A stretch of DNA of 34,503 nucleotides, taken from Mucilaginibacter sp. GTDB lineage: Bacteria; Bacteroidota; Bacteroidia; Sphingobacteriales; Sphingobacteriaceae. The stretch lies in assembly GCF_028288105.1 (NCBI RefSeq), contig NZ_JAQBOI010000253.1, positions 1 through 34,503 on the forward strand, read 5' to 3'. Both the position numbers and the translations under genes were made by a program. Shown one piece after another: positions 2,024 through 31,647 of this stretch; within the stretch, counting starts at the first letter, position 1; each line of letters starts with the position of its first letter. The notes beneath the pieces are model-generated. The model had not been told where the DNA came from. It was given only the letters and a program-made list of their open reading frames with translations, and did no database searches.

Positions 2024-3201
2024 AAGCCATAAACCAAATAAAGACGTTTCAGCGCATATTGGGTGAGTTCCCTGCCGATACGCCTTTAAGCAAATTTTTA
2101 CCCGGCTTTTATCGTCAGAACAAACAAATGGGCTCAACCGACAGGCGCGTTGCCGGCAGGTTGATCTATAATTATTTTCGCCTGGGGCGTGCCTTGCCCA
2201 ATCTGCCATCCGAAGAACGTTTGATGGTTGCAGAGTTTCTATGTAACACACAAAGCAACTCCTTTCTGCAGCACTTTAAACCCGACTGGGCCGCCTGTGT
2301 AGGTTTTAGTATCGATGAAAAAATAAATCTTGTAAAAGCTACATATCCGGATTTTAAACTGGAAGATGTTTTTCCCTGGGTGCCGCAGCTTTCGGCTGGT
2401 ATTGATAAAGATGCTTTTCTGAAATCGTTTTTCATCCAGCCCGATCTTTTCATCCGTGTAACTAAAGGCTTTGAAACACAGGTTAAAGCCGAACTTACCA
2501 AAGCGTCTGTTACTTTTAAGGATGAAGGCAATGGCTGCCTCTCGTTACCAAACGGTACGCGCTTAGAAACCATATTTGCCAAACAGCATTGGTTTGAGGT
2601 GCAGGACCTGTCATCCCAGCAAACTGCCAATTACTTTAAGCCTGAAAAATGGGATAGCTGGTGGGACGCCTGCGCGGCATCGGGCGGTAAATCCTTATTG
2701 CTGCACAGCCTGGAGCCGGATATTAAACTGGTGGTATCTGATATCCGTGAATCTATCCTTTCCAATTTAGATGAGCGCTTCCAGCAGGCGGGCTTGCGCA
2801 AATATCAAAAAAAGGTAATGGATTTGACCGAGAACAACGAGCAGCTTTTATATAACTACGAGTTTGACGGAATTATATTGGATGCACCCTGCAGCGGCTC
2901 TGGCACATGGGGCCGAACGCCCGAAATGATCAGCCAGTTCGAGATCCATAAAACCGACTTTTTTAAACGCCTGCAACAAGCCATTGTTCGCAATGTGGCT
3001 AAACACCTTAAACCGGGTAAACCGCTCATTTACATTACCTGCTCGGCCTTTAAAGCCGAAAACGAAGACGCCGTAAACTTCATCACCAAAGAACTGGGTT
3101 TAAAACTGGAAGAAATGAAAGTGCTAACCGGTTATGAGAACAAAGCGGATACCATGTTTGTAGCGAGGATGATAGCACCGGGAGAAGAATCAAGAAATTA
3201 G
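2020..3201 (+). CDS. RsmB/NOL1-type rRNA (cytosine-5) methyltransferase
   Basis: A 393-aa SAM-dependent RNA m5C methyltransferase of the Fmu/RsmB/NOL1/NOP2 family. The N-terminal third is NusB/RsmB-like helical sequence. The catalytic domain shows VQDLSSQ, a motif I DACAASGGKS near residue 216, motif IV DAPCSGSGTWGR (C291) and motif VI YITCS (C341, the expected nucleophile). Motif I has Ser where the family usually has Pro (AAPGGK). It is close to the length of E. coli RsmB (about 430 aa). The target is probably a cytosine in 16S rRNA, but the exact position cannot be read from sequence. It starts with ATGA overlap on the preceding lipoprotein gene. Its last codons and TAG lie in a short direct repeat, so the C-terminal ESRN tail may be repeat-derived. 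Confidence 0.88.
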   Translation: MKAINQIKTFQRILGEFPADTPLSKFLPGFYRQNKQMGSTDRRVAGRLIYNYFRLGRALPNLPSEERLMVAEFLCNTQSNSFLQHFKPDWAACVGFSIDEKINLVKATYPDFKLEDVFPWVPQLSAGIDKDAFLKSFFIQPDLFIRVTKGFETQVKAELTKASVTFKDEGNGCLSLPNGTRLETIFAKQHWFEVQDLSSQQTANYFKPEKWDSWWDACAASGGKSLLLHSLEPDIKLVVSDIRESILSNLDERFQQAGLRKYQKKVMDLTENNEQLLYNYEFDGIILDAPCSGSGTWGRTPEMISQFEIHKTDFFKRLQQAIVRNVAKHLKPGKPLIYITCSAFKAENEDAVNFITKELGLKLEEMKVLTGYENKADTMFVARMIAPGEESRN

Positions 3202-3211
3202 AATCAAGAAA
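3186..3211. repeat. Tandem 12-mer AGAATCAAGAAA straddling the rsmB-like stop codon
   Basis: Two perfect copies of AGAATCAAGAAA separated by TT. The first copy encodes the last residues of the methyltransferase and the junction supplies its TAG. A related sequence in the opposite orientation is at 25082-25104 (AGAGTCAAGAAAGAAGAC on the minus strand), suggesting a dispersed low-complexity repeat family. Confidence 0.55.
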
Positions 3212-3227
3212 CAAGGCTATTCCCGCA

Positions 3228-3260
3228 ATTAACACGAAAGTTAAAAAGTGTTAATCTTTT
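3228..3260 (+). terminator. Possible weak terminator hairpin after the guaA-lipoprotein-methyltransferase operon
   Basis: ATTAACAC pairs with GTGTTAAT across a 12-nt loop, followed by CTTTT. The stem is AT-rich and the T run is short, so termination is uncertain, but the position, just past the operon and before a separately transcribed permease, fits. Confidence 0.35.
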
Positions 3261-3309
3261 CATTACTTGTGTATTAGCAGCTAATTTAGTTTCAACATAA
3301 CCCGTCACT

Positions 3310-5715
3310 ATGCTGCACAACTACTTTACCATTGCCTGGAGAAACATCTGGAAACATAAGCTTTTCTCGCTCATTAATATATTCGGCTTATCTGTTGGTA
3401 TTGCATTTACCTTGCTGATAGCCGCCTATGTATGGCACGAGGTTAACGTAAATGCCGACCTGAAAAACGCCGATAACCAGTACATTATCCAAAGTAAATG
3501 GAAAGACCCGAACATGGGCTATGTGTTAACCGCCCTTGCCCCTATGTCAAAGGCGCTGAAAGAGGAATACCCAAACCTGGTTGCCAATTATTATCACTGG
3601 GATGGTGTAAGCTCTAACGTATCAAAGGGTGATAAGCACTTCCGCGAAAGCTTGCAGGTTGGGGACAGCACATTCATTACTACCTACGGATTTAAGTTGT
3701 TACACGGCGACCCTAAAACGGCCTTAAATGACCCTTTTTCGGCCGTGATAACGCAGGAGATGGCAATTAAATACTTCGGCAAAACCGATGTTGTTGGACA
3801 GTCGGTAACCATCGAAAGTTTCACCGGCACCAAGCACGATTTTATGATAACAGGCGTGCTGGATAAACTCAAGAAGAACTCGGTTACCAATGTTATTGAT
3901 GCCAGCAATAGTACTTTCTTTTTACCGGTTGCCGCTGCGAAGTTCTTAGGGCGAAGTTTAGACGGATGGAATAATACAGCTATTGTTGGCCTGATAGAAC
4001 TAAAGAAAGGTGTTAAGCCCGAAGCTTTGATTGGCCCTATGAAAAGTCTCATCAAACGGAATGCCCCGCCGCAAATAGCGGCTAACCTTACGCCTTACCT
4101 GGTTTCTTTAAAGTCCTTTTATATAAATGATGCCGGCGGTACTATCAAAAGGATGCTTTACACACTGTCGTCAATAGCGTTATTTATTTTGTTGATGGCG
4201 GTTATCAATTTTGTGAACATCTGCATCAGCCGCTCATCGCAACGCATGAAAGAAATGGGCATCCGTAAGGTTTTGGGTGGATTGAGAAAACAACTGATAT
4301 GGCAGTTTTTGACCGAATCGGTTTTAATGGTACTAATTGCAACCTTAATAGCATTGGGTATATACGCGCTGGCAAGGCCATTCTTTGCAGATTTATTAGC
4401 CACCGATATCAGCGGTTTGTTATCTTTCCCCCTATATTTTTATTTGATCCCGGTAGCATTCGCGCTGGTAATAGGTCTGCTGGCAGGCTTATACCCTGCC
4501 TTGGTGTTGTCATCCCTAAAATCGATCGACTCGCTTAAAGGTAAGCTGGACAGGGTGAAAGATAATGTGCTGTTCCGCAAATCGCTTATCGCTTTTCAGT
4601 TTGGTACAGCGGCTGTGGTGCTGATCTGCGCCATCGTTATCTCCAAACAGATCAACCTGTTCTTTAGTAAAAACCTGGGCTATGATAAAGACTATGTAGT
4701 TTACGCCCAGCTGCCGCGCGACTGGAGTAAACCCGGCGTACAAAAAATGGAAGATAAACGGTATCGCCTGGCGCAATTACCGCAGGTAAGTTCCGTAGCT
4801 TTATCATGGGCAATTCCCGATGGTGCCGGTGGCGGCGGGATACAGGCTTACAAAATGTCCGACAACCCAAACCAGGCGTTTGCATCACAAGTATTAACAG
4901 TTGATAACCAATATGCGGTAACCTATGGCATCTCACTTAAGGCCGGTGAATTTTTCAAGTCGCAATACATGCCAAGTGATTCGGCCGAAGTTGTAATTAA
5001 CGAAAAGCACTTAAAAGCATTAGGCTTTAAAACCGCGCACGACGCCATTGGCCAACAGTTCCAGGCACAGGGTATGCCCCCATTAACCATACGAGGCGTA
5101 GTAGCCGATTTTCAATTTGGCTCGATGCAAACCCCCATAACGCCTGTAACTTTTGTTAACGTAAACTGGTCGCCTTTTTATCGCTACTTCTCCATTAAAC
5201 TAAAGCCGGGCAATATAGAAAGCAGTCTGGCAGCCCTGCAAAAGAAATGGGCCGAGGTTTTACCCGGCGCTCCTTTCGAATATGGTTTTATGGATGAGGC
5301 CCTTGCCAAGCTATACAAAACCGAACTGCAGTTGAAAAAAGCATCATACCTGGCAACGGGGCTGGCTATAATTATTGTGCTGTTGGGTGTACTGGGGCTG
5401 ATATCCCTCAGCATCCAGAAGCGCACCAAAGAGATAGGCATCCGCAAGGTGCTGGGTTCATCGGTTAGGGATGTAATGATCCTGTTCCTGAAAGATTTTT
5501 TGGGTACGGTTGTTATTGCCGGGATCATTGCCTGCCCGCTGGCTTACTGGATGATGAGTAAATGGCTCAACGGATATGCCTATAAGATAAGTTTAACGGC
5601 AGTACCCTTCGCGGTAGCTGTAGTGGCGCTGCTTATGATAACAGCAGTGTTAATAAGCCTGCAAACTATAAAGGCAGCGCTGGCAAACCCGGTGAAGAGC
5701 TTGAGGAGCGAGTGA
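3310..5715 (+). CDS. FtsX/MacB-type ABC transporter permease (two FtsX units)
   Basis: An 801-aa inner-membrane protein with the layout of Bacteroidota FtsX-like permeases. It has an N-terminal TM helix (KLFSLINIFGLSVGIAFTLL), a periplasmic MacB core domain, a first FtsX block (about 280-400), another TM after LFRKSLIAFQFGTAAVVLI, a second periplasmic domain and a second FtsX block (about 680-795). Both FtsX blocks carry the coupling-helix signature K-E-(M/I)-GIRKVLG (MKEMGIRKVLGG and TKEIGIRKVLGS). Such permeases work with a LolD/MacB-type ATPase in lipoprotein handling, peptide export or stress mechanotransmission. No ATPase is adjacent. It is monocistronic between a weak terminator and a large hairpin element. 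Family is secure, substrate unknown. Confidence 0.93.
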   Translation: MLHNYFTIAWRNIWKHKLFSLINIFGLSVGIAFTLLIAAYVWHEVNVNADLKNADNQYIIQSKWKDPNMGYVLTALAPMSKALKEEYPNLVANYYHWDGVSSNVSKGDKHFRESLQVGDSTFITTYGFKLLHGDPKTALNDPFSAVITQEMAIKYFGKTDVVGQSVTIESFTGTKHDFMITGVLDKLKKNSVTNVIDASNSTFFLPVAAAKFLGRSLDGWNNTAIVGLIELKKGVKPEALIGPMKSLIKRNAPPQIAANLTPYLVSLKSFYINDAGGTIKRMLYTLSSIALFILLMAVINFVNICISRSSQRMKEMGIRKVLGGLRKQLIWQFLTESVLMVLIATLIALGIYALARPFFADLLATDISGLLSFPLYFYLIPVAFALVIGLLAGLYPALVLSSLKSIDSLKGKLDRVKDNVLFRKSLIAFQFGTAAVVLICAIVISKQINLFFSKNLGYDKDYVVYAQLPRDWSKPGVQKMEDKRYRLAQLPQVSSVALSWAIPDGAGGGGIQAYKMSDNPNQAFASQVLTVDNQYAVTYGISLKAGEFFKSQYMPSDSAEVVINEKHLKALGFKTAHDAIGQQFQAQGMPPLTIRGVVADFQFGSMQTPITPVTFVNVNWSPFYRYFSIKLKPGNIESSLAALQKKWAEVLPGAPFEYGFMDEALAKLYKTELQLKKASYLATGLAIIIVLLGVLGLISLSIQKRTKEIGIRKVLGSSVRDVMILFLKDFLGTVVIAGIIACPLAYWMMSKWLNGYAYKISLTAVPFAVAVVALLMITAVLISLQTIKAALANPVKSLRSE

Positions 5716-5858
5716 GGAAAAGCCCCCCAGCCCCCTGAAGGGGGAGCCTTTGAAGTGCTTAAAAGCATTCCCTTTTTATTAAGTAACCACAATGGATAGC
5801 ATTGAGAATGCTACTCGTTAAATTCAATTCCCCCTTCAGGGGGTTAGGGGGCTTCTCC
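5716..5858. repeat. Composite 143-bp inverted-repeat element (CCCCCTGAAGGGGG family)
   Basis: Left arm 5716-5746 (core AGCCCCCTGAAGGGGGAG) is the near-perfect inverse of right arm 5828-5858 (core TTCCCCCTTCAGGGGG). Each arm contains its own palindrome CCCCCTGAAGGGGG. Inside, AGCATTC (5764-5770) pairs with GAATGCT (5806-5812), so the whole can fold as nested hairpins. It fills the gap between the convergent permease and marC genes exactly; the right arm ends on the marC stop codon. There is no ORF. It is REP/MITE-like and may act as a bidirectional terminator. The element inside leuS has the same architecture. Confidence 0.85.
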
Positions 5859-6427
5859 TACAACCCCGAATTACTTCTGAAAAGCTTTATCGCGATAGCT
5901 AACAAAATAACCCCGAATGCTTTGCGCAGGATATGCAGGCCTGTTTTACCGAACAGTCTTTCCAGCCATTTTACATTTTTAAGTACCAGGTAAACAAATA
6001 TGGTGTTCACTATGATACCCACGATGATGTTTTGGGTTTGATATTGAGATTTTAGGGACAATAAAGTTGTCATGGTACCGGCACCGGCTATCAGCGGGAA
6101 CGCCAGCGGGACTATAGATACAGATTCGGGCATTTCCTCTTTAAAAAAGTTTACACCTAACACCATCTCCAACGCTATAATAAATATCACAATAGAACCC
6201 GCTATAGCGAAAGATGATATATCCAGCCCTATTACGGCCAGCAATTCATCGCCCACAAACAGGAAAGCTATCATCAATATCAATACGGCTATACTTGCTT
6301 TTTCAGATTCGATATGGCCCGCTTTTTGGCGTAATTGAATAATTACAGGTATGGCGCCCAGTATATCAATGATCGCGAACAGGATCATGGTTACTGAAAG
6401 GATCTCTTTAAAGATTAATGGATGCAT
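5858..6427 (-). CDS. MarC family (UPF0056) inner-membrane protein
   Basis: A 189-aa hydrophobic protein with about six TM segments. ILGAIPVIIQLRQ near the N-terminus, the mid-protein PLAFPLIAGAGTMTTLLSL and the C-terminal FGKTGLHILRKAFGVILLAIAIK match the MarC/YchE/YhgN family. The molecular function is not established; E. coli MarC was once linked to antibiotic resistance and that link was later withdrawn. It lies 4 bp downstream of the MFS gene on the same strand, so the two form an operon. Its stop codon touches a large palindromic repeat, which probably ends transcription from both sides. Confidence 0.92.
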   Translation of the reverse strand: MHPLIFKEILSVTMILFAIIDILGAIPVIIQLRQKAGHIESEKASIAVLILMIAFLFVGDELLAVIGLDISSFAIAGSIVIFIIALEMVLGVNFFKEEMPESVSIVPLAFPLIAGAGTMTTLLSLKSQYQTQNIIVGIIVNTIFVYLVLKNVKWLERLFGKTGLHILRKAFGVILLAIAIKLFRSNSGL

Positions 6428-11805: not shown

Positions 11806-11882
11806 AGATGTGCAGATTTCAAATGTGCAGATATGCAGATGATTTCATTTGCACACCTGCAGATCCGCACATTTGCACATCT
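11806..11882. repeat. ATGTGCAGAT-family inverted repeat, copy 1, filling a convergent junction
   Basis: Left half AGATGTGCAGATTTCAAATG and right half ending CATTTGCACATCT are mutual inverses with mismatches. Each half is made of degenerate units of about 10 bp ending in TGCAGAT. It occupies all bases between the DinB stop (11803-11805) and the hydrolase stop (11881-11883). A second copy is at 29798-29902. Confidence 0.85.
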
Positions 11883-16425: not shown

Positions 16426-16579
16426 TGTTTAATTTGGGATTGTTAGGGCATATAAATACCAACAACATTTGCCGAAAATAAGTGTTAAAAAATAGCCTGC
16501 CAACTTTAATGTTAACCTATATAATATATAGACTTTATTGAAACTCCCCTGTAAACGCGGATGTTAAAGCAGTTTTTAC

Positions 16580-16587
16580 TATTTTCG
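16580..16587 (+). promoter_or_regulatory. Candidate -7 box of the leuS promoter
   Basis: TATTTTCG followed by CAACC resembles the Bacteroidota TAnnTTTG box and its usual downstream context. No convincing TTG lies at the right distance upstream. If real, transcription begins near 16592, after the ORF-track start at 16561, so translation must begin at ATG 16612. Confidence 0.4.
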
Positions 16588-16611
16588 CAACCTCATACGG
16601 TAAATAAGCAA

Positions 16612-19464
16612 ATGGACTATCAATTTAAAGATATAGAGCAGAAGTGGCAGAAGTTTTGGGCTGATAATAAAACCTTTAGGGCCGAAAACAAAACCAACAA
16701 ACCAAAATACTATGTGCTGGATATGTTCCCTTACCCATCGGGTGCGGGCTTGCATGTTGGGCATCCGCTGGGTTATATAGCCTCTGATATTTTTGCACGT
16801 TACAAGCGCTTAAAGGGCTTTAACGTATTGCACCCTATGGGTTACGATAGCTTTGGTTTACCTGCCGAGCAATATGCTATACAAACCGGGCAGCATCCAT
16901 CGGTTACTACCGAAGATAATATTGCTACTTACCGCCGCCAGCTTGACCAGATAGGGTTCTCGTTTGATTGGGAAAGGGAGGTGCGCACCAGTTCGCCCAA
17001 TTATTATAAATGGACACAATGGATCTTTATACAACTGTTTAATAGCTGGTATAATAAAGATGCCGATAAGGCCGAAAGCATTGCCAAACTGGTTGAGCAT
17101 TTTGAAACCAAAGGCTCGGCTGGTATAAATGCCGTTTGCGATGAAGAAATTTTAAGCTTTACCGCCGATGAGTGGAAGGCTATGAGCGAATATGAGCATC
17201 AAGCCGAACTATTAAAATATCGTTTAACCTACTTGCGCGAAAGCACTGTTAACTGGTGTGCTGCACTGGGTACCGTATTGGCTAACGACGAAGTGAAAGA
17301 CGGCTTTAGCGAACGTGGTGGTTACCCTGTTGAACAAAAGAAAATGACGCAATGGAGCATGCGCATTACCGCCTATGCCCAGCGTTTATTAGAAGGCCTT
17401 GATACTATTGACTGGCCCGAGCCGCTAAAAGAAATGCAGCGCAACTGGATTGGTAAAAGTGTAGGTGCTTCTGTAAGGTTCCCATTAGCCTCACCTAAAT
17501 CCTCTCCAAAGGAGAGGACCTCAGAAGAAGATAATAACTCCCTCTCCTTTGGAGAGGGCCGGGGTGAGGCTTCCTACATTGAAGTGTTCACCACCCGTGT
17601 TGATACCATTTTTGGTGTGAGTTTCGTGGTTGTTGCGCCAGAGCATGAATTGGTTGCAAGCCTAACCACGCCCGAACAAAAGGCCGATATTGATGCCTAC
17701 ATCGTTCAAACTAAAAAGAAAAGCGAGCTTGACCGTATGGCCGATACAAAAACTGTATCTGGTGCTTTTACCGGCAGTTATGTAACTAACCCGCTTAATG
17801 GTGATAAAATACCGGTTTGGATAGCCGATTACGTTTTGGCAGGATATGGTACCGGTGCTGTTATGGCCGTACCATCAGGCGATCAGCGCGATTATTTATT
17901 CGCGAAGCATTTTAACCTGCCGATAATCCCTATTATCGATATACAAAATATTGAAGTAGAGGCCGACCCAACCAAGGAAGGTAAATACATCAACTCCGAC
18001 TTTATGAACGGCTTGGGCTATAAAGAAGCAACCGCCGCTGTGGTTGCCAAATTAGAAGCTTTGGGCTTGGGTAAGGCAAAAGTGAACTTCAGGATGCGCG
18101 ATGCTATTTTTGGCCGTCAGCGTTACTGGGGCGAGCCGGTACCGGTTTACTTTAAAGGCGGTTTACCTTATTTAATTGGGGAAGAACACCTGCCTTTATT
18201 ACTACCCGAAATTGATAAATACCTGCCAACTGAAACCGGTGAACCTCCATTGGGCCGCGCCACAGACTGGAAACATCCTGAAGGTGAATACGAACTAAGC
18301 ACCATGCCGGGTTGGGCGGGTAGCAGCTGGTACTGGTACCGCTATATGGATGCCCATAACGATAAGGAATTTGCATCGCGCGAAGCGATTGAATACTGGA
18401 AAGATGTTGACCTGTACATTGGCGGCAGCGAGCATGCTACCGGGCACCTTTTGTACAGCCGTTTCTGGAATAAGTTTTTGAAGGATATTGGCAAAGTAGT
18501 TGAGGAAGAGCCTTTCAAAAAGCTGATCAACCAGGGGATGATACAGGGCAGAAGTAATTTTGTATACCGGTTAATTGATGATATGGGCAAGGGTACAAAC
18601 ACTTTTGTTTCTCATGGTTTGATCAAAGATCATAAAACCTCGCCATTACATGTTGATGTAAACATAGTTGAGAACGAAGTTTTAAACCTTAACAAATTCA
18701 AGGAGTTCCGCCCCGAGTTTGCTGATGCTGAATTTATACTGGAGAACGGCAAATACATCTGCGGTGTTGAAGTGGAGAAAATGTCGAAATCTAAATTCAA
18801 CGTTGTTAACCCGGATGAGCTGATTGCCCGTTATGGTGCTGATACACTGCGTATGTACGAGATGTTCTTAGGTCCGCTGGAGCAAAGCAAGCCTTGGAAT
18901 ACCAATGGCATTGAGGGTGTGTTTAAGTTTCTGCGTAAATTTTGGAGGTTATTCCATGATGCGGACTGGAACTTTATTGTAGTTAACGAAGCCCCTACTA
19001 AAGCCGAGTTAAAATCGTTGCACAAGATCATCCGTAAGGTGGAAGAAGATATAGAGCGTTTCTCGTTCAATACATCGGTATCCAGCTTTATGATAGCCGT
19101 TAACGAATTAACCGATCTTAAATGTAATAAACGCGCTATACTGCACGAACTGGTAATTGCACTTGCCCCCTACGCCCCGCATATTTGCGAGGAACTTTGG
19201 GTGTTGCTTGGCAACGACGCAGGCACTATATCAACAGCTGCTTATCCAAAATTTAACCCGGCTTATTTGGTTGAGGATGAATTTAGCTACCCCGTATCTT
19301 TTAACGGTAAAATGAAAACCAACGTTAGCCTATCATTAACAATGGAAGCGGCCGATATTGAAGCGGCCATTTTAGCCAATGCCGATGTACAAAAATACCT
19401 GGATGGTAAAACCCCTAAAAAGGTAATTGTAGTAAAAGGCCGCATTGTTAACATAGTAATCTAA
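16612..19464 (+). CDS. leuS: Leucyl-tRNA synthetase (carries an in-frame palindromic insert)
   Basis: Class I synthetase charging tRNA-Leu with leucine in the cytoplasm. With ATG 16612 ([20 protein letters not shown]) the product is 950 aa; the 17 extra codons of the track start look like leader and overlap the candidate promoter. HVGH (residues 48-51) is the HIGH motif and KMSKS is at about 723. The CP1 editing domain contains [15 protein letters not shown] and [17 protein letters not shown] zinc-ribbon-like and leucine-specific region and the anticodon-binding helices follow. Residues about 293-320 ([20 protein letters not shown] and on) are low-complexity, unlike LeuRS, and are encoded by a palindromic repeat (separate entry). 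They lie just before EVFTTR, at the edge of the editing domain. The frame stays open and all motifs persist, so the enzyme is probably active. A terminator follows. Confidence 0.96.
17488..17570. repeat. Palindromic element inserted in frame within leuS (CCTCTCCAAAGGAGAGG family)
   Basis: Left arm GCCTCACCTAAATCCTCTCC and right arm ending GGAGAGGGCCGGGGTGAGGC are inverse copies. Each arm holds the palindrome CCTCTCCAAAGGAGAGG or its variant CTCTCCTTTGGAGAG, with a spacer of 16 nt. All codons are sense in the leuS frame. Imperfect direct repeats flank it (TTCCCATTA on the left, TTCCTACATT on the right), possibly a degraded target duplication. The design (outer inverse arms, each arm itself palindromic) matches the intergenic element at 5716-5858, although the bases differ. 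Confidence 0.9.
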
Positions 19465-29797: not shown

Positions 29798-29902
29798 AGA
29801 TGTGCAGATTTTAGATGTGCGGATATGCAAATGAGGTGAAGTTGATTCGTTTCCAATAATGTAATTTATTTGCACATTTGCATATCTGCATATTTGCACA
29901 TC
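29798..29902. repeat. ATGTGCAGAT-family inverted repeat, copy 2, in the leader of the CDF gene
   Basis: Left arm AGATGTGCAGATTTTAGATG and right arm CATATTTGCACATCG are imperfect inverses around an AT-rich centre. The left arm matches copy 1 (11806-11882) almost base for base over its first 14 positions. It begins 4 bp after the rlmH stop and ends 7 bp before the CDF ATG, so it occupies the entire possible 5' leader. Confidence 0.85.
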
Positions 29903-31563: not shown

Positions 31564-31647
31564 CGTCATCCTGAACTTGTTTCAGGATCCCACAGTACAG
31601 GTTGACTACTTAGCGAGAGAGATGCCGAAACAAGTTCGGCATGACGG
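31564..31647. repeat. Inverted repeat (CGTCATCCTGAACTTGTTTC family)
   Basis: Left arm CGTCATCCTGAACTTGTTTC plus AGGATCC (31564-31590) is the imperfect inverse of the right arm GATGCCGAAACAAGTTCGGC plus ATGACGG (31621-31647). A 30-nt centre separates the arms. From memory, very similar sequences are common in many bacterial genomes. It sits in the convergent gap between the Dabb and DUF5606 genes. Confidence 0.85.

Follow-up and report, generated by a model that had tools for sequence, protein, structure and literature searches.

The window analysed here is the whole stretch of 34,503 nucleotides of a Mucilaginibacter sp. contig (NZ_JAQBOI010000253.1, assembly GCF_028288105.1). The gap between two of its genes, which converge on each other, is filled by an inverted-repeat element of a dispersed family that we call F1, while a second element, of a family called F2, lies inside leuS and was used for comparison. 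Gene boundaries around the F1 element are those of simple ORF calls.

3310–5715, plus strand: 801-aa ABC transporter permease of the ADOP/MacB-FtsX type, upstream neighbour (stop codon 5713–5715)
5716–5858, no strand: whole F1 doublet, occupying the entire gap between the two convergent genes
5722–5745, plus strand: left F1 arm, GCCCCC-CAG-CCCCC-TGAA-GGGGG-A, beginning 6 nt past the permease stop codon
5731–5744, plus strand: internal palindrome of the left arm, exact match to CCCCCTGAAGGGGG
5746–5828, no strand: spacer of the doublet, with a local stem at 5797–5813
5829–5852, minus strand: right F1 arm, GCCCCC-TAA-CCCCC-TGAA-GGGGG-A, 5 nt off the marC stop codon
5830–5843, minus strand: internal palindrome of the right arm, exact match to CCCCCTGAAGGGGG
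5858–6427, minus strand: 189-aa membrane protein of the MarC family, convergent neighbour (stop codon 5858–5860)
17487–17571, plus strand: F2 doublet, in frame within leuS (16561–19464), comparison element

The element between the permease gene and marC

The original prediction described two inverse arms of about 31 bp, each with an internal palindrome, enclosing a second stem, and all of these parts were recovered. A repeat search returned 5715–5745 and 5829–5859 (31 nt, 90% complementary, 83 nt between them) as the top entry among the inverted repeats of the window, each arm carries CCCCCTGAAGGGGG in its own orientation, and the enclosed stem (TAGCATT-GAG-AATGCTA) is present in a spacer that is not common to other copies. 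Only the first ~20 nt of this spacer (GCCTTTGAAGTGCTTAAA) are similar to some other F1 copies in the same genome. As in REPINs, doublet and spacer together fold into a long hairpin, with an RNA fold of −76.2 kcal/mol (z −9.1) and a DNA fold of −38.2 (z −6.6), neither of which was equalled in 200 shuffles. The element matched no Rfam family at gathering score, and the weak miRNA-type matches look like generic matches to a long hairpin.

The leuS insert was expected to share this architecture, and it likewise consists of two inverted arms with internal palindromes (17487–17517 and 17541–17571, 84% complementary). Its family, F2, is present at ~45 loci in the genome with two types of arms, GCCTCACC-TAAAT-CCTCTCC-AAA-GGAGAGG-AC and GCCTCACC-CCGG-CCCTCTCC-AAA-GGAGAGG-G. 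When the arm layouts of both families are compared, the same order emerges (a C-rich run, a short linker, a C-rich copy, an A-rich loop and a G-rich complement), so that two dispersed families built on one plan are indeed found. Compensatory change between copies is visible in F2, relatives of which at the leuS and DUF2400-like sites carry a concerted stem change, CTCCCC/GGGGAG for CTCTCC/GGAGAG; the C5/G5 stems of F1 vary too little (49 doublets) to be informative on this point. A shared mobiliser of F1 and F2 was also considered from copy numbers and rejected, the correlation of densities being weak and non-significant (rho 0.22, p 0.09).

Other palindromes were observed in the window as well. 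A third palindromic doublet, CGTCATCCTGAACTTGTTTCAGGATC / GATGCCGAAACAAGTTCGGCATGACG, lies at 31564–31646 and probably represents another dispersed family, and two GTGCAGATATGCAGATG-like inverted repeats are found at 11820–11875 and 29815–29893. A GTGCAGATATGCAGATG-like stretch occurs also in an F1 spacer on contig C54, and in genome G027 (L268) such stretches form a tandem array at the C200 site (described below).

A dispersed family of palindromic arms

A genome-wide search for the arms in the assembly itself (4.8 Mb, 333 contigs, 88.5% complete) showed that the element is not single-copy, with ~13 F1 loci, most of them having two arms. The consensus derived from 174 arms reads AAG-CCCCC-YAR-CCCCC-TRAA-GGGGG-AR, and its logo has sharp borders. 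This pattern was detected in 55 out of 61 Mucilaginibacter genomes (maximum 107 per genome, zero copies in several), and the reversed control pattern gave 0 matches across the same 61. Exact arms were encountered also in Paludibacter, Prevotella, Bacteroidaceae, Porphyromonas, Saprospiraceae, Larkinella and a few others, yet when the phylum was sampled evenly, 2/171 genera had the exact pattern; a phylum-wide family was therefore rejected and F1 is considered patchy outside Mucilaginibacter. In a Flavipsychrobacter MAG (L162, 3371–3956), nine F1 arms stand in a tandem direct array, unlike the usual doublets.

The unit of the family is the single arm, an imperfect palindrome of 24–27 nt that frequently occurs in head-to-head doublets. 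On one 2.4-Mb contig, neighbouring arms ≤ 200 nt apart formed 15 head-to-head pairs and 1 direct pair but no tail-to-tail one, compared with 0.26 pairs of any kind expected, i.e., the unit is over-represented as inverted doublets in the way REPIN units are. Both the window copy and F2 had prompted the rule that the arms of one F1 doublet differ in linker type (TAA with CNG), which was discarded after a permutation test (38 mixed doublets vs. 34.7 expected, p 0.30).

Among 19 doublets from three genomes no similarity between spacers was detectable even where the arms were identical (the single exception being a 13-nt start common to one pair). This counts against the mobile-repeat reading favoured below, since a unit carrying its spacer along would be expected to have related spacers in recent copies. 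Terminator-like hairpins are found in several of these 19 spacers. One such hairpin, at the C200 site (AACAAAGCCCAACT...AGTTGGGCTTTGTT in the G020 sequence), lies between the F1 arms in genomes G000 and G020, and it is kept in G027, where a decayed right arm is all that is left of the arms. Two observations bear on whether the doublet is itself a unit, namely the short-spacer in-frame doublets in the DUF2400-like gene and the unrelated spacers elsewhere. In addition, G020, the closest relative examined, has both arms of the window site at the same gene ends but ~1 kb apart (L064, 430–1497), enclosing ORFs of 183 and 111 aa, and thus the doublet is not always closed. A literature search by sequence gave no relevant paper among the matches listed. 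F1 is presumably not an integron attC site, an identity that we considered and set aside in view of the core-site consensus.

Gene ends and protein loops

F1 arms abut stop codons in a fixed orientation. Across 80 named loci, 72 arms point their outer side at a gene 3′ end, and 55 of them include the stop codon or come within 10 nt of it (median 2 nt); of 49 arms turning their inner side towards a 3′ end, none is that close. After excluding stop codons supplied by the arm itself, 42/59 arms were still within 10 nt, where two null models predict 4 or 15 and the maximum in 2000 simulations was 27. For marC, the F1 arm begins 0–5 nt beyond the stop codon in seven species. One side observation concerns gmk (L017, G000:C186, contig 3026–3690), which runs into F1 at its 3′ end and has gained an element-encoded C-terminal tail. 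Since REP ends that supply the stop codon of a flanking ORF have been reported (PMC3733652), abutment is not new in itself.

Orthologous gaps differ in the presence of F1. G000 and G020 have F1 arms at the ftsX-marC junction, where G004 and G009 carry other, palindrome-containing DNA; which palindromes stand at the 3′ end of marC varies across the genus, and the C239 site has F1 in G000 only, among the genomes compared. The comparison with relatives proposed originally thus yielded presence/absence differences, but no clean target duplication was seen.

A role at transcript ends is suggested by T-runs, which are moderately enriched after the arm hairpin (28% of the cases vs. 7% in the control window). 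A scan of the window for terminator-like sites speaks against it, having found few (2, with 0.8 ± 0.9 expected). At 5716–5858 the arms probably end both convergent transcripts, the hairpin perhaps terminating transcription in both directions and blocking 3′ exonucleases; a bidirectional transcript end is our best guess for this site, and a probable one judging from sequence. The same T-runs, together with the fixed orientation at gene ends and the near-invariant stems, could be taken to mean that F1 is immobile and was selected by the host as a bidirectional terminator or a binding site for a protein, evolving repeatedly to one sequence. We regard this as very improbable given the in-frame copies within coding sequences, the tens of copies against thousands of genes, and the patchy distribution of the exact pattern (2/171 genera, and none in several genomes of the genus).

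Palindromes of both families are found in frame inside conserved genes: F2 in leuS, and an F1 doublet in a gene on contig C289 which we take to be a member of the DUF2400/TIGR02757 family. Across 50 genomes, the codon interval concerned in the DUF2400-like gene is 30 to 150 nt long, always a multiple of 3, and a simple pattern match scored 22 of these intervals as F1, 11 as a GTCATCCTGAGC-type palindrome, 1 as F2-like and 16 as unclassified, the latter including native loops of ~30 nt as well as some arms that are single or decayed. This gene (L273–L302, L419–L438) appears as an insertion hot spot at a single interval, with palindrome families varying by species. Besides doublets of F2, a comparable hot spot in leuS (L309–L338) contains relatives of F2 with altered stems, repeats of other kinds, and short 33-nt loops taken as native. 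No target duplication, as would mark a MITE, was seen by eye at either site. At both sites one protein loop is thus filled in frame by different palindrome families depending on the species, and this swap is what we find most interesting in the data.

The swap invites a reading in which family-unspecific replacement or copying exchanges unconstrained DNA for interchangeable palindromes, flush on both sides. The flush abutment of arms against stop codons is in line with it, as are the differing palindromes at the marC 3′ end, the unrelated spacers, and, in leuS as in the DUF2400-like gene, the varied families found at a single codon interval instead of a native loop of ~30–33 nt. Nevertheless, ordinary insertion combined with selection and deletion of neutral DNA could lead to an identical outcome, intermediates were not observed, and we hold such turnover to be unlikely. 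A bolder version, in which the unrelated palindrome families of Mucilaginibacter would be interchangeable cargo of one Y1-independent process that rewrites gene gaps and protein loops such as that of LeuRS, is speculative, though we would place it no lower.

Mobilisation and comparison with known systems

REP-type repeats are generally held to depend on RAYTs (REP-associated Y1 tyrosine transposases), and mobilisation by such an enzyme had been proposed for this element. The layout of the doublet hairpin is that of REPINs (PMC3116915), and a classical RAYT-driven REPIN would also fit the gene content. The genome has one genuine RAYT on contig C92 (NF047646, 104 bits vs. a cut-off of 80), as well as two IS200-like Y1 genes, and RAYTs are frequent across the genus. 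However, the RAYT genes of the genus (L093–L122) have their own REP-type palindromes on the flanks, GCGCTCGTTTGTAACGAGCGC, AGTCCGGATTTATAATCCGGACT and TTCAAGCGTCCACGCTTGAA among them. None of 30 RAYT genes had an F1 or F2 arm within 1.5 kb, and near 60 further ones we found a single F1 doublet plus two F2-like arms, each > 1 kb away, so these 90 neighbourhoods (about 312 kb) show no F1 enrichment, nor does any RAYT in the loci examined appear as a cognate of F1, flanked by F1 itself. F1 density was not correlated with RAYT density (rho 0.02, p 0.87). Moreover, genome G082 (99% complete) contains 32 F1 arms and no detectable match to PF01797 or NF047646, and G031 and G035 are likewise without a detectable Y1 gene. 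Tags were rare at arm ends (GTAG 5/134, CGTC 0/134) and neither forms a consensus. Based on the flanks of the RAYTs, the absent density link and G082, we consider mobilisation by a RAYT unlikely, and the original prediction is not supported on this point, although a Y1 enzyme since lost may possibly have mobilised F1 in the past. No gene mobilising F1 was found. Around the IS200-like Y1 gene at L031 (1296–1977), CCGTCCCTTNAAAGGGACGG and CCGTTGG-type hairpins were observed on both sides.

F1 has the doublet properties of a REPIN and lacks its RAYT and the tags. We favour, with a probability of roughly two in three, the reading that F1 is a REPIN-like dispersed repeat which spread by a route probably other than the resident RAYT, is tolerated at gene ends and in loops, and probably has a transcript-end role at the site studied here. 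Its copies, two imperfect palindromic units of ~27 nt in head-to-head inversion around a variable spacer, would have spread as small non-autonomous mobile DNA forming a hairpin when single-stranded, with the resident RAYT probably not being the mobiliser, and they would last where they are harmless, i.e., at gene ends and in loose protein loops. With F1 abundant in a genome where no Y1 gene is detectable, it becomes possible to test what moves a REP-type repeat. The loops of LeuRS and of the DUF2400-like protein offer a natural series for how repeats turn into protein sequence, and stop-codon abutment, being simple to quantify, can serve as a signature in searches of other phyla.

Four known systems come close. 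The repeats of the Bacteroidetes TnpA-REP subclass 2.6 (PMC6006769) share the phylum and the atypical secondary structure with ours, but they flank their own transposase gene, something not seen for F1 or F2 at the loci examined. REPINs, or REP doublets, of Pseudomonas and E. coli (PMC3116915) are likewise short palindromic units in inverted-doublet hairpins, mostly intergenic and with tens to ~100 copies per genome; F1 departs from them in that no RAYT of its own is linked to it, the spacers of different copies are unrelated, and a GTAG foot is not a consensus. GTAG-/CGTC-tagged REPs (PMC3733652) agree with F1 in the palindromic unit of 20–40 nt near or overlapping gene ends, in some copies lying inside ORFs, and in ends that are close to coding regions or give the flanking ORF its stop codon, while F1 has neither tag as a consensus. 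Rickettsia palindromic elements (PMC2229807), beside which our repeats are set by description, are palindromes of ~100–150 bp lying in frame in conserved genes, as F1 does in the DUF2400-like gene and F2 in leuS, and gmk is touched in both systems; Mucilaginibacter belongs to another phylum, however, and several of its palindrome families interchange at one codon interval.
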